From contig JAUNGV010000022.1 in NCBI GenBank assembly GCA_030524225.1, positions 1-39,722 on the forward strand: DNA of 39,722 nucleotides, written 5' to 3'. Positions within the stretch are counted from its first letter, which is position 1. Every line of letters starts with the position of its first letter. Below are positions 18,930 to 34,218 of this stretch, one piece after another. Below the pieces are notes generated by a model. The model was not told the DNA's origin. It ran no database searches and saw nothing but the letters and a program-made list of their open reading frames with translations. A program made the translations under genes and the position numbers. This stretch comes from Eubacteriales bacterium. GTDB lineage: Bacteria; Bacillota; Clostridia; Lachnospirales; Lachnospiraceae.

Positions 18930-18978
18930 GGGACTGCCGCGGTGATCGGAGACGACCGGTCGGCGGCATCCCTTTTTT
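18930..18978 (+). terminator. Terminator of hpf
   Basis: GGGACTGCCGC pairs with GCGGCATCCC (one bulged base), and an inner GATCGG/CCGGTC-like pairing extends it. TTTTTT follows at 18973-18978. Confidence 0.8.
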
Positions 18979-18984
18979 GCTGTT

Positions 18985-19074
18985 TCCGATGCTGTCATTC
19001 ACAGCCCTGCACTCGCATGCGCACTCGTCGCTTCTGCGAAGCTCCCGTTTCGCTCCTTGCGGAGCTAAGACTGC
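18985..19074. repeat. Cluster of short GC-rich palindromes
   Basis: Between the hpf terminator and the palindromic element lie several tight inverted repeats in a row: GCATGC, GCTTC-TGC-GAAGC (19030-19042) and GCTCC-TTGC-GGAGC. No gene is seen. It directly adjoins the repeat element at 19075-19244 and may be part of the same repeat family. Confidence 0.5.
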
Positions 19075-19155
19075 TTATGCGGGGGAGTTCAGCCTGCGCC
19101 ATTCGCAAAGTCGCGCTATCGCGCTTTCCGCCGCTCTGCGGCTACCTTTGCTCAT
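19075..19155 (-). CDS. 26-codon ORF within palindromic element, copy A
   Basis: A minus-strand ORF beginning MSKGSRRAAESA and ending EWRRLNSPA-stop, preceded by GAGGGAG as a possible SD. Copy B at 32390 has exactly the same length and 19 of 26 identical residues. Whether it is translated is unknown: the stems of the hairpins within it are conserved while their loops vary, which points to selection on DNA or RNA structure at least as much as on peptide. It is Arg- and Ala-rich and has no recognised domain. Confidence 0.25.
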   Translation of the reverse strand: MSKGSRRAAESAIARLCEWRRLNSPA

Positions 19156-19244
19156 GAACTGGCGCTCCCTCAGCCGAAAGCAAGAGGTGCAAATTCGTGC
19201 AAGCACGATTTGTCCCTCTTGCTTCTGGCTGGCTGAACTGTTAC
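19085..19244 (-). repeat. Dispersed palindromic element, copy A
   Basis: The ends are inverted: GAGTTCAGCC (19085-19094) and GGCTGAACTGTTAC (19231-19244). Inside are the hairpins GCCGC-AGA-GCGGC and GCGC-GATA-GCGC and a long hairpin (GAAAGCAAGAGG 19176-19187 with CCTCTTGCTTC 19215-19225) that copy B lacks. Read on the minus strand, about 95 bases align with 32359-32461, the shared start being GTAACA and the shared core GCTGAGGGAG, then ATGAGCAAAGG. Confidence 0.75.
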
Positions 19245-19274
19245 CTCAAACCGCTGTGAATAGGAACTTGTTGC

Positions 19275-19303
19275 TTGCAAATAAATACCCCGTATGCTAT
19301 AAT
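19275..19303 (+). promoter_or_regulatory. Sigma-A promoter of the butyryl-CoA operon
   Basis: TTGCAA (19275-19280) and TATAAT (19298-19303) with a 17-base spacer. Transcription would start near 19310, about 55 bases before thlA. Confidence 0.8.
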
Positions 19304-19315
19304 ATTGACAGCACT

Positions 19316-19333
19316 GTGATAAAAAATTAACAA
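19316..19333 (+). promoter_or_regulatory. Rex-like operator in the thlA leader
   Basis: GTGATAA-AAAA-TTAACAA matches the Clostridial Rex consensus TTGTTAA-N4-TTAACAA at 12 of 14 positions, and one half-site is perfect. It lies just downstream of the -10 box, where a bound repressor would block transcription. Rex senses NADH/NAD+ and represses this same pathway in other Clostridia. Confidence 0.55.
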
Positions 19334-19364
19334 ACTTTTCACAACTCAAATAATGGAGGGCACT

Positions 19365-20543
19365 ATGGCAAAGAAAGTAGTATTGGCAGGCGCATGCAGA
19401 ACCGCAATCGGCAAGATGGGCGGCGCGCTCTCGAATGTTCCGGCAAAGGATCTGGGCGCGATTGTGATCAAGGAAGCGCTGAACCGTGCAGGCGTTAAGC
19501 CGGAGCAGGTGGACGAGGTTCTGATGGGCTGCGTGATTCAGGCGGGTCAGGGACAGAACGTTGCGAGACAGGCATCCATCGCGGCAGGCGTTCCGGTAGA
19601 GGTTCCGGCTGTGACGATCAACGTGGTCTGCGGCTCCGGTCTGAACTGCGTCAACATGGCGGCGGATATGATTCTGGCAGGCGATGCGGACATCGTGGTT
19701 GCCGGCGGTATGGAGAATATGTCTCTGGCTCCGTATGCGGCTATGAAGGCGCGTTTCGGCTACAGAATGAACAACGGCACGTTTGTTGACACCATGGTTA
19801 ATGATGCCCTCTGGGATGCTTTCAATGATTATCACATGATCCAGACAGCTGACAATGTGGCAGAGCAGTGGAAGCTGACGAGAGAGGAACTGGACGAGTT
19901 CGCAGTCGCGAGCCAGAATAAGGCAGAGGCGGCGATCGCAGCAGGCGCGTTCAAGGATGAGATCGTTCCGGTTGAGATCAAGCAGAAGAAGCAGACCGTC
20001 GTATTCGATACGGATGAAGGCCCGCGCGCGGGTTCCACGGTCGAGGCGCTGGCAAAACTGCGCGCAATCAATGCAGGCGGCGTGACGACGGCAGGCAATG
20101 CGTCCGGCATCAACGACGGCGCTGCGGCGATCGTTGTGATGAGCGAGGAGAAGGCGAAAGAGCTGGGCGTGACCCCGATGGCTACCTGGGTAGCAGGCGG
20201 TCTGGCAGGCGTTGATCCGTCCATCATGGGTGTCGGCCCGGTGGCTGCGACGAAGAAGGTTCTGAAGAAGGCGGGTCTTACGATCGACGACATCGATCTG
20301 TATGAGGCGAACGAGGCGTTTGCGGCACAGTCCGTGGCAGTCGGCAAGGATCTTGGCTTTGATCTGTCCAAGTTAAATGTCAATGGCGGCGCTATCGCGC
20401 TCGGCCATCCGGTAGGCGCTTCGGGCTGCCGTATTCTGGTCACCCTTCTTCACGCAATGCAGAAGAAGGATGCGAAGAAAGGTCTTGCGACGCTGTGCAT
20501 CGGCGGCGGTATGGGCTGCGCGACGATCGTAGAGAGAGACTAA
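19365..20543 (+). CDS. thlA: Acetyl-CoA acetyltransferase (thiolase)
   Basis: A 392-residue biosynthetic thiolase that joins two acetyl-CoA to acetoacetyl-CoA, the first step to butyryl-CoA. The catalytic Cys89 lies in [10 protein letters not shown], His in [10 protein letters not shown] near residue 350, and the second Cys in CIGGGMGCA near residue 380. ATG 19365 is preferred: GGAGGG (19355-19360) is its SD, while the in-frame ATG at 19353 overlaps that SD. It is first in the operon thlA-crt-hbd-bcd-etfB-etfA and lies behind a Rex-like operator. A close paralogue is present at 32731. Confidence 0.96.
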
Positions 20544-30704: not shown

Positions 30705-31193
30705 ATGGCTAAGAAACAGCAGGAAGTAAAGACGAACGCGATGCGGATTCTGGAGCGGGAGAAAATCGCGTATATGCACCAGTCGTATGAGTGCGGAGAG
30801 TTTGTGGACGGAATTGAGACGGCGGACAAGCTGGGGCTGCCGCGGGAGCAGGTGTATAAGACGCTTGTGACAGTCGGTGCGGATCATCAGCATTACGTCT
30901 TCGTGATCCCGATTGAGAGGGAGCTCGATCTCAAAAAGTGCGCGAAGTCCGTCGGTGTCAAATCGGTGGAGATGATTCCCATGAAAGAACTGTTTGCGCT
31001 GACAGGGTATGTGCGCGGCGGGTGTACGGCGATCGGTATGAAAAAGCCCTTTGTGACGAGGCTCGACGAGAGCGCGGCGGGGCAGGAGTCCATCTATATC
31101 AGTGGCGGGAAGATCGGATGTCAGATTTGCCTCTCGCCCGGGGATTTCCTGCGGGCGGCGCACCGGGCGGAGTATGCGGATCTGGTACAGTAG
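30705..31193 (+). CDS. ybaK: Cys-tRNA(Pro) deacylase, YbaK/EbsC type
   Basis: A 162-residue trans-editing protein that removes Cys from mischarged tRNA-Pro (and tRNA-Cys). The fold is marked by TNAMRILEREKIAYMHQSYE, the catalytic Lys region EQVYKTLVTVG, GVKSVEMIPMKELFALTGYV RGGC with the glycine-rich loop, and GKIGCQICLSPGDFL. ATG 30705 has GAAGGAG upstream; the open frame before it (from 30576) shows no similarity. It is followed by mtnA after 35 bases, so the two are cotranscribed from 30480. Confidence 0.92.
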   Translation: MAKKQQEVKTNAMRILEREKIAYMHQSYECGEFVDGIETADKLGLPREQVYKTLVTVGADHQHYVFVIPIERELDLKKCAKSVGVKSVEMIPMKELFALTGYVRGGCTAIGMKKPFVTRLDESAAGQESIYISGGKIGCQICLSPGDFLRAAHRAEYADLVQ

Positions 31194-31197
31194 AAAG

Positions 31198-31224
31198 GCC
31201 GCAGACGAGTTGCGGCAGAAGGAG
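31198..31224 (+). promoter_or_regulatory. Hairpin-SD module before mtnA
   Basis: GCCGCAG-ACGAG-TTGCGGC (31198-31216; 7 bp with one G-U pair) is followed by AGAAGGAG, the SD of mtnA. The same hairpin with a purine SD recurs at 32549 and 32691. Confidence 0.65.
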
Positions 31225-31228
31225 AACC

Positions 31229-32362
31229 ATGAAAAGTATTCTGGAGTATGAGACCGTAGCCCTTCTCGATGAGGAGGACGCGGTGCAGATTATTGATCAG
31301 ACAAAGCTGCCGGGAAGGACGGAGCTGATCAAACTGAAGACGGCGCAGCAGATCTGGGACGCGATTTATCTGCTGCAGGTGCGGGGCGCTCCGGCGATCG
31401 GGGTCTGCGCGGCAATGGGAATCTATATTTTGACTAAAAAGGTCAAAATTGAGAACGACACACCGGAAAATCACGATGTCAATTTTGCTGTCCTGGAGCA
31501 GGAATTCGAGAAACAAAAGGTTTATCTGGACTCTTCGCGTCCGACGGCAGTGAATCTCTCATGGGCCTTAAAGAGAATGGAGAAAGTCTTTTTTGACTGT
31601 AAAGGTCAAAAAGAGATGACGATGGCGCAGGTTAAGGAACGCCTGCGCGGGGAGGCGGAGGAGATCAGGCGGGAGGATATCGACGTCTGCCGCCGGATCG
31701 GAGAATATGGCCTGGCGCTTGTGAAGCCGGGGGACGGGATTCTCACGCACTGCAATGCAGGGAAGCTCGCAGCGATCCGGTACGGAACGGCCACCGCGCC
31801 GGTTTATCTGGGCGCGGAGCGGGGATACGATTTTCATGTCTATGCGGACGAGACGAGGCCGCTCCTGCAGGGAGCGCGTCTGACGGCGTACGAGCTGCAG
31901 GCGGCGGGCATCGATGTGACGCTCCAGTGTGACAATATGTCGGCCTCCCTGATGCGGGAGGGAAGGATTCAGGCGGTTTTCGTGGGTTGCGACCGCGTGG
32001 CGGCCAATGGGGATACGGCGAATAAGATCGGTACGAGCATGGTGGCGATCGCGGCGAAGCGCTATAGCGTTCCGTTTTACGTGTGCGCGCCGACTGCCAC
32101 GATTGATATGTCTATCCCCGGCGGTGATCAGATCGTGATCGAGCAGAGAAAGCCGGAGGAGGTCACCGGGATGTGGTATGCGCAGCGCATGGCGTCGGAG
32201 GGAGTGAAGGTATACAATCCGGCCTTTGACGTGACGGACAACGATCTGATTGCGGGAATTGTCACGGAGTTCGGTGTTGCGAGAGCGCCGTATACAGAGT
32301 CGCTGCGGGAGATTTTCAGGAAAAAGGAAGAGAGAAGCGGGGAAAGGGCGTATAATTTGTAA
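31229..32362 (+). CDS. mtnA: S-methyl-5-thioribose-1-phosphate isomerase (MtnA/eIF2B-like)
   Basis: A 377-residue sugar-phosphate isomerase that turns methylthioribose-1-phosphate (or the deoxyribose analogue) into the ribulose form. Motifs: RGAPAIG at 52-58, SSRPTAVNLSWAL near 102-114, catalytic Cys175 in THCNAG, Asp255 in GCDRVAANGD, NKIGTS and PTATIDMSIPGG. ATG 31229 has AAGGAG upstream. No other methionine-salvage gene is nearby, so it may serve salvage of 5'-deoxyadenosine or methylthioadenosine with genes elsewhere. The stop codon TAA lies within the left end (GTAACA) of a palindromic element. Confidence 0.93.
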   Translation: MKSILEYETVALLDEEDAVQIIDQTKLPGRTELIKLKTAQQIWDAIYLLQVRGAPAIGVCAAMGIYILTKKVKIENDTPENHDVNFAVLEQEFEKQKVYLDSSRPTAVNLSWALKRMEKVFFDCKGQKEMTMAQVKERLRGEAEEIRREDIDVCRRIGEYGLALVKPGDGILTHCNAGKLAAIRYGTATAPVYLGAERGYDFHVYADETRPLLQGARLTAYELQAAGIDVTLQCDNMSASLMREGRIQAVFVGCDRVAANGDTANKIGTSMVAIAAKRYSVPFYVCAPTATIDMSIPGGDQIVIEQRKPEEVTGMWYAQRMASEGVKVYNPAFDVTDNDLIAGIVTEFGVARAPYTESLREIFRKKEERSGERAYNL

Positions 32363-32470
32363 CAATTCCCGCTGAGGGAGAGCAAGATCATGAGCAAAGG
32401 CAGCCGCGAAGCGGCGGAAAGCGCGGCAGCGCGGCCCCTCGAATGGCGCGGGCTGAACTCGTTGCCATAA
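32359..32470 (+). repeat. Dispersed palindromic element, copy B
   Basis: It starts GTAACAATTC at the mtnA stop codon and ends GGCTGAACTCGTTGCC, an imperfect inverted match of the start. The core GCTGAGGGAG, then ATGAGCAAAGG, and the hairpins GCCGC-GAA-GCGGC and GCGC-GGCA-GCGC match copy A (19085-19244, opposite strand), where the stems are the same but the loops differ. Copy A has about 60 more bases in one arm. Confidence 0.75.
32390..32470 (+). CDS. 26-codon ORF within palindromic element, copy B
   Basis: Begins MSKGSREAAESAAARP, contains EWRGLNS, and stops at 32468-32470. GAGGGAG lies about 8-14 bases before the ATG. It has the same length as copy A at 19075-19155, with seven residue differences. 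Translation is unproven; see copy A. Confidence 0.25.
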   Translation: MSKGSREAAESAAARPLEWRGLNSLP

Positions 32471-32484
32471 TTTCACGGACGGGA

Positions 32485-32730: not shown

Positions 32731-33912
32731 ATGGGACGAAAAGTGGTATTGGCAGGCGCCTGCAGAACGGCGATCGGAACGATGGGAGGAACGTTATCGA
32801 GAATTCCCGCGCCGGATCTGGGGACGGTCGTGATTAAGGAAGCGCTGAAACGGGCGGGCATCGAGCCGCAGCAGGTGGATGAGGTCTATATGGGCTGCGT
32901 CATTCAGGCGGGGCTCGGACAGAACCCGGCGAGACAGGCGGCGGTCAACGCGGGGATTCCTGTGGAGGCTCCGGCGACGACGATCAACGTGCTGTGCGGT
33001 TCCGGACTGCACTGCGTGAATCTGGCGGCCAAGCTGATCGCCAGCGGCGATGCGGACATCATCGTGGCGGGCGGCATGGAGAATATGAGCAAAGCGCCGT
33101 ATCTGCTGTATGAGGGGAGATACGGCTACCGCATGGGCGCGGGCAAGGTGGACGACGCGCTGATCCGCGACGCGCTCTCCGATGCGTTCGGCGGTTATCA
33201 CATGGGCATTACGGCGGAAAATATTGCCGAGGAGTGGGGACTGACGAGAGAGCAGCTCGACGAGTTCGCGGCGTGGAGCCAGCAGAAGGCGCAGAAGGCG
33301 ATCGCAGAAGGGAAGTTCAGGGACGAGATCGTTCCGATGGAAGTGAAGCAGAAGAAGCAGACCATTGTCTTTGACACCGACGAGGGGCCGCGTCCGAATG
33401 TGACGGCGGAAGGGATCAGCAAGCTGCGTCCCGCATTCAAGGAAGGCGGCGTGGTGACTGCTGGCAACGCGTCGAGCATCAATGATGCGGCGGCGGCAAT
33501 CGTTGTGATGAGCGAAGAGAAGGCGAAAGAGCTGGGCGTGAAGCCGATGGCAACGTGGATCGGCGGCGAGCTGGCGGGCGTGGAGCCGCGCATTATGGGA
33601 ATCGGTCCGGTGGCGGCGACCCGCAAGGTAATGGAAAAGACCGGCTACCAGATCGGCGATTTTGATCTGATCGAGGCGAACGAGGCGTTTGCGGCGCAGT
33701 CGGTGGCGGTAGCGCACGATCTCGGATTCAGCAACGACGTTCTGAACGTCAACGGCGGTGCAATCGCTCTGGGACATCCGGTCGGCGCATCCGGCTGCCG
33801 GATTCTTGTCACGCTTCTGCATGAGATGGAGAAGCGGGATGCCAAGAAGGGACTGGCAACCCTCTGCGTCGGCGGCGGCATGGGCTGTGCGGCGATTGTG
33901 GAGAGGGAGTAG
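32731..33912 (+). CDS. Second acetyl-CoA acetyltransferase (thiolase)
   Basis: A 393-residue thiolase, paralogue of the ThlA at 19365; 75 of the first 100 aligned residues are identical. It has catalytic Cys89 in [19 protein letters not shown] with the His, and the C-terminal [16 protein letters not shown] stands eight bases before ATG 32731. It lies far from the butyrate operon, behind a long structured leader, and is followed by a terminator. It may supply acetoacetyl-CoA for another use or run as a thiolysis enzyme; no direction can be read from the sequence. Confidence 0.94.
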
Positions 33913-34090: not shown

Positions 34091-34210
34091 GCACTGGTCA
34101 TATTTGAATCACAGGGAAGCAGGCAGCAAGAAACAAGCACTGGTCATATTTAGATCACAGGGGAGCGGTCTGCATGGAACAAACGCTGGTTATATTTAGA
34201 TCACAGGGGG
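34091..34210 (+). repeat. Three direct repeats before the response regulator
   Basis: Units starting GCACTGGTCATATTTGAATC (34091), GCACTGGTCATATTTAGATC (34138) and ACGCTGGTTATATTTAGATC (34183), each followed by ACAGGG. They are about 46 bases apart. The third is joined to the gene start, and ATGGAACA occurs both before it (34174) and at the gene start (34219). Confidence 0.85.
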
Positions 34211-34218
34211 CGGGATAT

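Follow-up and report, generated by a model that had tools for sequence, protein, structure and literature searches.

The short palindromic element that occurs twice in the window (the whole 39,722-nucleotide stretch of DNA analysed here) is quite probably, as judged from sequence comparison, a MITE mobilised by an IS66-family transposase, with an interior that resembles the Clostridiales-1 RNA fold and is conserved at the level of the active elements. An IS66-family transposase would move the ~164-bp element in trans through its GTAACAGTTCAGCC ends, duplicating 8 bp of the target. The predicted fold consists, in order, of a long hairpin with a CYYG tetraloop, a stem with an ATGAG/CGAAT internal loop and two small hairpins. 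Active (master) elements would need this fold as an RNA read from the plus strand, and copies would decay neutrally after insertion.

Table 1. Features of the two element copies and their surroundings in the window
Feature	Position	Strand	Remarks
Second element, right part	18993..19085 (boundary approximate)	-	GTTACTATTCACAG-type ends; abuts copy A; end degenerate
26-codon ORF of copy A	19075..19155	-	Not a gene; stop beyond element
Copy A	19086..19244	-	Full-length; left end GTAACAGTTCAGCC intact; last 5 right-end bases (GTTAC) lost
Copy A, RF01699 match	19088..19237	-	Sub-threshold, full-length; Clostridiales-1 RNA 36.5 bits, cut-off 48
Copy A, core	19095..19170	-	GCGCC/GGCGC stem, conserved ATGAG/CGAAT internal loop, GCAAAG/CTTTGC stem, two small hairpins
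Copy A, hairpin I	19171..19231	-	~25 bp with a CUUG tetraloop; covariation of the arms among copies
Copy A, left terminal inverted repeat	19231..19244	-	GTAACAGTTCAGCC, exact
Second element, left end	19254..19267	-	1 mismatch; far side of copy A
mtnA ORF	30938..32362	+	Start uncertain; NCBIfam TIGR00512 402.5 bits, cut-off 279, match from ~residue 98-112
Copy B, left target-site copy	32351..32358	+	TATAATTT
Copy B	32359..32465	+	Internal-deletion variant without long hairpin I; R1 58.2 bits
Copy B, right target-site copy	32466..32473	+	CATAATTT, 7 of 8 against left

The features of both sites are listed in Table 1. A sequence-only reading of the window had described a common core of about 95 bases on opposite strands, and the stretch shared by copy A (minus strand) and copy B (plus strand) is indeed 95 nt long with 83% identity (19085-19179 against 32366-32460). 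Also the SD-like GCTGAGGGAG, followed by ATGAGCAAAGG and GGCTGAACT, is present at both sites as it had stated, the GCCGC/GCGGC and GCGC/GCGC stems are the same with changed loops, and the mtnA stop is supplied by copy B (TAA at 32360-32362, in the GTAAC end of the element). A covariance model of the element (R1, described below) gives copy A 156.3 bits over 19081-19244, and copy A is absent from the alignment from which R1 was made. The right end of copy A is cut where it is joined to a second, related element. An ORF at 18977-19330 that overlaps copy A is without support as a gene. It may be noted that two acetyl-CoA acetyltransferase-like genes (19353-20543 and 32731-33912) lie ~110 and 265 bp from the nearest element copy, and that a 46-bp tandem repeat of 2.7 copies is found at 34092-34214.

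A blastn search of the own genome, a 2.9-Mb Lachnospiraceae MAG (127 contigs, 80.9% complete), gave 44 non-overlapping copies, of which several are truncated where a contig ends. The two sites are thus part of a dispersed repeat, far above chance, as had been proposed; the count of two reflected the window only, and the earlier statement that just two copies in the whole genome, without compensatory changes, would argue against a repeat family can be set beside the 44 obtained from the genome-wide BLASTN check that it had asked for. The consensus full copy is ~164 bp with the ends GTAACAGTTCAGCC…GGCTGAACTGTTAC. The 14-bp end GTAACAGTTCAGCC occurs exactly at 34 places in the genome as against 0 for a pattern of reversed order, and at 106 as against 4 when up to 2 mismatches are allowed. 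As in a MITE, the copies are short, dispersed and numerous, carry no transposase gene inside and are bounded by terminal inverted repeats (GTAACAGTTCAGCC). The distribution is patchy: 195 genomes, the own one among them, include 15 that bear the exact 14-bp end, and when 117 relatives were searched at the DNA level the element turned up nowhere but in the own genome and in one other (G064). Among the 40 of the 44 copies for which gene neighbours were examined, no fixed orientation relative to genes is evident (upstream 23 opposite and 14 same, downstream 17 and 16), and 15 copies were marked as lying inside an ORF. Head-to-tail arrays of 2 or 3 copies are also seen at C77:21119-21611 (L003), C69:8084-8410 (L016) and C100:82331-82667 (L002).

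Target-site duplications of a fixed length, 8 bp, accompany the ends, which is a further property of MITEs. An exact 8-bp duplication flanks 36 of 76 outside elements with these ends (among the matches listed; the 76 comprise all cargos between these ends from 42 bp up, and not just this core), where 500 shuffles give a mean of 0.5 and a maximum of 4, and 5 of 30 own full-length copies (500 shuffles: mean 0.2, maximum 2). When at least 7 of 8 positions are required to agree, the numbers rise to 48 of 76 (among the matches listed) and 7 of 30. The lengths 4-7, 9 and 10 give 0-2 cases each, so that 8 bp is nearly exclusive. For the 13 outside elements with the same core (among the matches listed), 4 have an exact 8-bp duplication and 6 have one at 7 of 8 or better. 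As to mobility, a protein search gave 27 outside mtnA loci, and in the 17 same-genus loci tested (all at least 63% identical) R1 found no match; the site without the element in these 17 relatives is taken as an empty site and thereby as an indirect sign of movement. By its inverted ends, 8-bp duplications, many copies and an end that is shared with transposase genes (see below), the element is best classed as a MITE. Some other elements with the same ends are worth recording. Minimal elements of 42-43 bp, two end repeats with almost nothing between them, occur at L104:7721-7762, L122:5286-5327, L155:3883-3924 and L192:4590-4632, flanked by exact 8-bp duplications, in Catenibacillus scindens (for L192 the host is inferred). 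A second cargo family of 143-202 bp (L108, L131, L261-L266), in Muricomes and the genome G141, has the same ends and is at first sight unrelated to the window core.

IS66 ends start with GTAA. On one contig of the own genome (C52), a longer end that starts with the 14-mer is followed by the C-terminus of an IS66 transposase (PF03050 21.9-22.2 bits, just below the cut-off of 23.1). C52 and eight other own contigs bear one of two such longer ends, and these eight (C21, C27, C40, C46, C72, C74, C99 and C125) stop ~50 bp inside the longer GTAACAGTTCAGCC-end element. Breaks at such a place are expected of collapsed IS copies, and a multi-copy IS is therefore probably missing from the MAG; its interior was not found in the own assembly. 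When the C52 C-terminus was searched in 397 genomes of the family, five outside loci were obtained. At four of them (two in G509, one each in G444 and G457) the exact 14-mer starts 30 bases past the transposase stop codon, at 34 positions from the last sense base, while the fifth (G067, 43% identical) is without the 14-bp end. At one locus (L369) PF03050 scores 69.7 bits and the NCBIfam IS66 equivalog 132.5 bits, below its cut-off of 180. The transposase association rests on C-terminal parts, and a complete autonomous IS66 element with both ends was not found by the own-genome family search or by the scans of loci other than those from 62 same-genus genomes. A long-range pair of ends at L116 620-3401 encloses a 642-codon frame and is without duplication, and a search of viral contigs gave one stretch, without a pair of ends. 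The 8-bp length is that expected for movement by the IS66 family, of which two members are listed with an 8 bp duplication in a portion of PMC3281130. We infer from the shared end and the duplication length that an IS66-family transposase would be what moves the element.

Turning to the interior, copy A has a folding energy of -81.8 kcal/mol (z -6.5) and the shortened copy B does not rise above shuffled sequences in stability (z -0.42). The same architecture is seen in outside elements from G064, Catenibacillus and others (among the matches listed). Own copies were aligned in A1 (30 of the 44), and a second alignment, A2, on which R1 was built, holds 23 rows (10 own and 13 outside elements) selected for full length. 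In A2, 90.6% of the cells pair, and 67 cells show a double change as against 22.2 in shuffles (0 of 500 reach 67) and 1-18 in slid versions, it being understood that rows from one genome share descent so that one change may be counted several times. For further pair types the signal is weaker, with 31 as against 28.8 in shuffles, and 31 of 500 shuffles attain the observed count. Helix 2 has a pairing rate of just 54%, and we attribute this to a local register error in the alignment. Within the own genome, deviations to G·U and to A·C are similar in number (78 against 92; 104 against 104 for all groups together), as expected if inserted copies drift by neutral decay, and this comparison gives no sign of RNA function in the own-genome copies. 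The selection for hairpins that had been suggested from the two window copies is thus supported between genera and not among the copies of this genome. What is conserved between genera, as far as the alignments tell, is the fold and not a peptide.

Strand comparisons bear on whether the fold matters as RNA; it may be noted that the lineages in these and in the pair tests share descent. Folding is more stable for the plus strand in 30 of 30 canonical RF01699 copies, 13 of 13 outside elements of the GTAACAGTTCAGCC type (among the matches listed) and 24 of 30 own copies, and with tetraloop bonuses switched off in 30, 12 (again among the matches listed) and 25 of these. G·U pairs on the plus and minus strand stand at 46:28 (canonical), 28:14 (outside, among the matches listed) and 86:79 (own, not significant). 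A CYYG loop is present on the plus strand in 28 of 30 canonical, 13 of 13 outside (among the matches listed) and 27 of 30 own copies, as against 6 of 30, 1 of 13 (among the matches listed) and 0 of 30 on the minus strand. An unpaired loop pair, TGAG…CGAAT/C, with its halves 20-90 bases apart, is found in 25 of 30, 11 of 13 (among the matches listed) and 28 of 30, as against 5-8% of letter shuffles. The strongest competitor, to which we give about one chance in a few, accepts the same mobile element and holds that the fold matters as DNA or not at all, the two-sided changes being made without RNA selection when one palindrome arm is corrected from the other by template switching. Long near-perfect hairpins undergo such correction, and hairpin I is of this type; the own copies, with their nearly equal G·U and A·C deviations, also show no strand bias. 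Against it stand loops that are unpaired and yet conserved, a CYYG loop specific to one strand and the excess of plus-strand G·U pairs between lineages, and we favour a core that would act as RNA in the active elements.

The fold resembles a catalogued RNA. At the Rfam gathering threshold the window yields only a tRNA, and in a permissive search copy A is aligned over positions 1-166 of the 166 of Clostridiales-1 RNA (RF01699) with E 1.4e-4 for the window, its score lying below the cut-off. The own genome has 20 RF01699 places at E up to 1, of which 16 are copies of the element family, matched over the whole model and none past the cut-off; the sole place that passes it (C47:49660, 69.2 bits) is not a copy of the family. 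Hence no element copy reaches the 48 bits of RF01699 membership. Three outside loci of the GTAACAGTTCAGCC type (L259, L138 and L204) lack any match to RF01699 at E up to 1. In the reverse direction, 43 distinct canonical copies (20 and 30 loci with seven common to both sets, e.g. L302 = L357) include 4 that R1 matches at E<0.01 and 39 without a match at that level. Three of the 20 reach E<0.01, and so do three of the 30; among the latter, one hit (L280, 2844) falls elsewhere in its locus and another (L302) is L357 again. Sub-threshold scores on hairpins also arise from unrelated miRNA families (on L033, mir-M7 with 33.7 bits exceeds RF01699 with 30.3). Taking together the scores below the cut-off, the weak reverse matches and the shared loops, we call the element related to RF01699 and not a member of it.

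RF01699 is typed by Rfam as an sRNA gene, and an extract of Weinberg 2010 (PMC2864571) rates the motif, from Clostridiales and human gut, as probably RNA and probably not cis-regulatory. These ratings, along with the covariation of the fold, would suit a small RNA gene of the host, repeated by chance and functioning at individual loci. We regard this as improbable for the element, since its own copies decay neutrally, stand in mixed orientation to their neighbours and are patchily distributed (counts above), and since canonical RF01699 has duplications too. Matches to canonical RF01699 were obtained in 69 of 195 genomes, the own one among them, and frequently in high numbers. In most aligned canonical copies of G139, G150 and G063 the similarity ends sharply at TGAT…ATCA, and the canonical copies L324-L363 end in TGATACCAGGGTCAAAAG / CTTTTGACCCCAACATCA or variants. 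Of 40 canonical copies fetched, 18 have both ends recognised by pattern, and 14 of these 18 are flanked by 5-7-bp duplications (10 exact 5-mers, 3 6-mers and 1 7-mer, with none in 4); the 10 exact 5-mers compare with a shuffle mean of 1.0 and a maximum of 5. This suggests that canonical RF01699 is itself a mobile element and not a fixed gene. A literature search of open-licence papers, judged by their listings, found nothing that treats Clostridiales-1 as mobile or connects it with the 14-bp end.

The remaining two readings fare much worse. REP/BIME, Correia and RU elements are small, palindromic and dispersed, and the earlier term "REP- or MITE-like" keeps its second half, on account of the inverted ends, duplications, copy number and shared transposase-gene end. 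A REP/BIME family with a RAYT (IS200/IS605-like) transposase as its mobiliser would also be short, palindromic and of high copy number, but REP elements move without target duplication, and the exact 8-bp duplications and the 14-bp end common with IS66 transposase genes point elsewhere, which leaves it very unlikely. As to a small peptide with an SD, the two 81-base ORFs exist as described (from 19155 down to 19075, and 32390-32470, with 19 of 26 residues identical), and equal length and identity are what speak for a 26-codon gene. Both ORFs stop outside the core, that of copy A in the adjoining element and that of copy B in the right target copy, so the equal length is a coincidence. Over 38 of the 44 copies (4 cut before the right end and 2 without TGAG were dropped), the ORF from ATGAGC runs for 12-100 aa, is 26 aa in five, and has a stop whose position varies from copy to copy; a rough motif rule puts the end repeat in another phase in 9 copies and cannot place it in 2. 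The ATGAGCAAAGG start itself falls in the ATGAG/CGAAT internal loop of the fold, which is kept across genera and in canonical RF01699 copies. The peptide claim is accordingly refuted by the variable lengths and missing fixed stop, and a peptide-gene reading of the element was rejected with next to no probability left to it.

A third kind of end is seen beside copy A. Copy A sits between two parts of a second element with GTTACTATTCACAG-type ends, its right junction has GAACT in common with that element, and it was either inserted there or recombined in. Relatives of the second element with a similar core occur at C110:5308-5396 (L032), C97:34563-35008 (L033) and C48:8099-8557 (L036). The first of these has an 8-bp duplication, GGAATAGT, which is the sole clean case, and the other two consist of tandem units of ~178-180 bp. 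On these three loci RF01699 gives 30.3 and 22 bits at two of the three and R1 gives 19.1 and 12 bits at two (E 0.019 and 0.62), and with such low scores the link of this end type to the core is weaker. Since cores in other Lachnospiraceae have ends with 5-7-bp duplications and a third end type occurs here, it seems that more than one transposase system carries the RNA-like core along, and ends may have been swapped around that core. More broadly, and only as a tentative proposal to which we give somewhat more credit than to the DNA-based competitor, the Clostridiales-1 RNA would be a mobile core that has been taken up by at least three unrelated sets of ends (TGATACCAGGGTCAAAAG with 5-7 bp, GTAACAGTTCAGCC with 8 bp and GTTACTATTCACAG with 8 bp), the RNA aiding spread or tolerance with any transposase.

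If the IS66-mobilised MITE with an RNA-like interior is the right reading, a catalogued RNA family of unknown function would need to be reinterpreted as transposable, one branch of it having a likely mobiliser, and there would be a case of a non-coding MITE in which compensatory changes preserve an RNA fold even as the ends are altered. The use of an RNA to a passive transposon would then become directly testable. For genome annotation, the element offers an explanation of spurious small ORFs and of breaks between contigs in genomes of this kind. With the Clostridiales-1 RNA the element has in common the closing stem, the long hairpin with a CYYG tip, the ATGAGC…GCGAATG internal loop and the bacterial family; it differs in having its closing stem fixed in the form of an IS66-type end, in that copy A stays below the cut-off (36.5 against 48), and in that Rfam describes an RNA gene and not a transposable element. 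With the IS66-family IS and MITEs derived from it, it shares the 8-bp duplications (as in the listed part of PMC3281130) and the exact end of the IS66 transposase genes of relatives, whereas its interior resembles an RNA fold and not a remnant of a transposase gene, which is absent inside. QMITE1/2 of Coxiella are, according to sections of PMC5896051 and of the review PMC10969869, MITEs with a stable transcript fold, to which the fold predicted here is alike. The QMITE-type RNAs are described in those sections at single insertions, whereas the fold of the present element is kept by compensation across genera and between several kinds of end.
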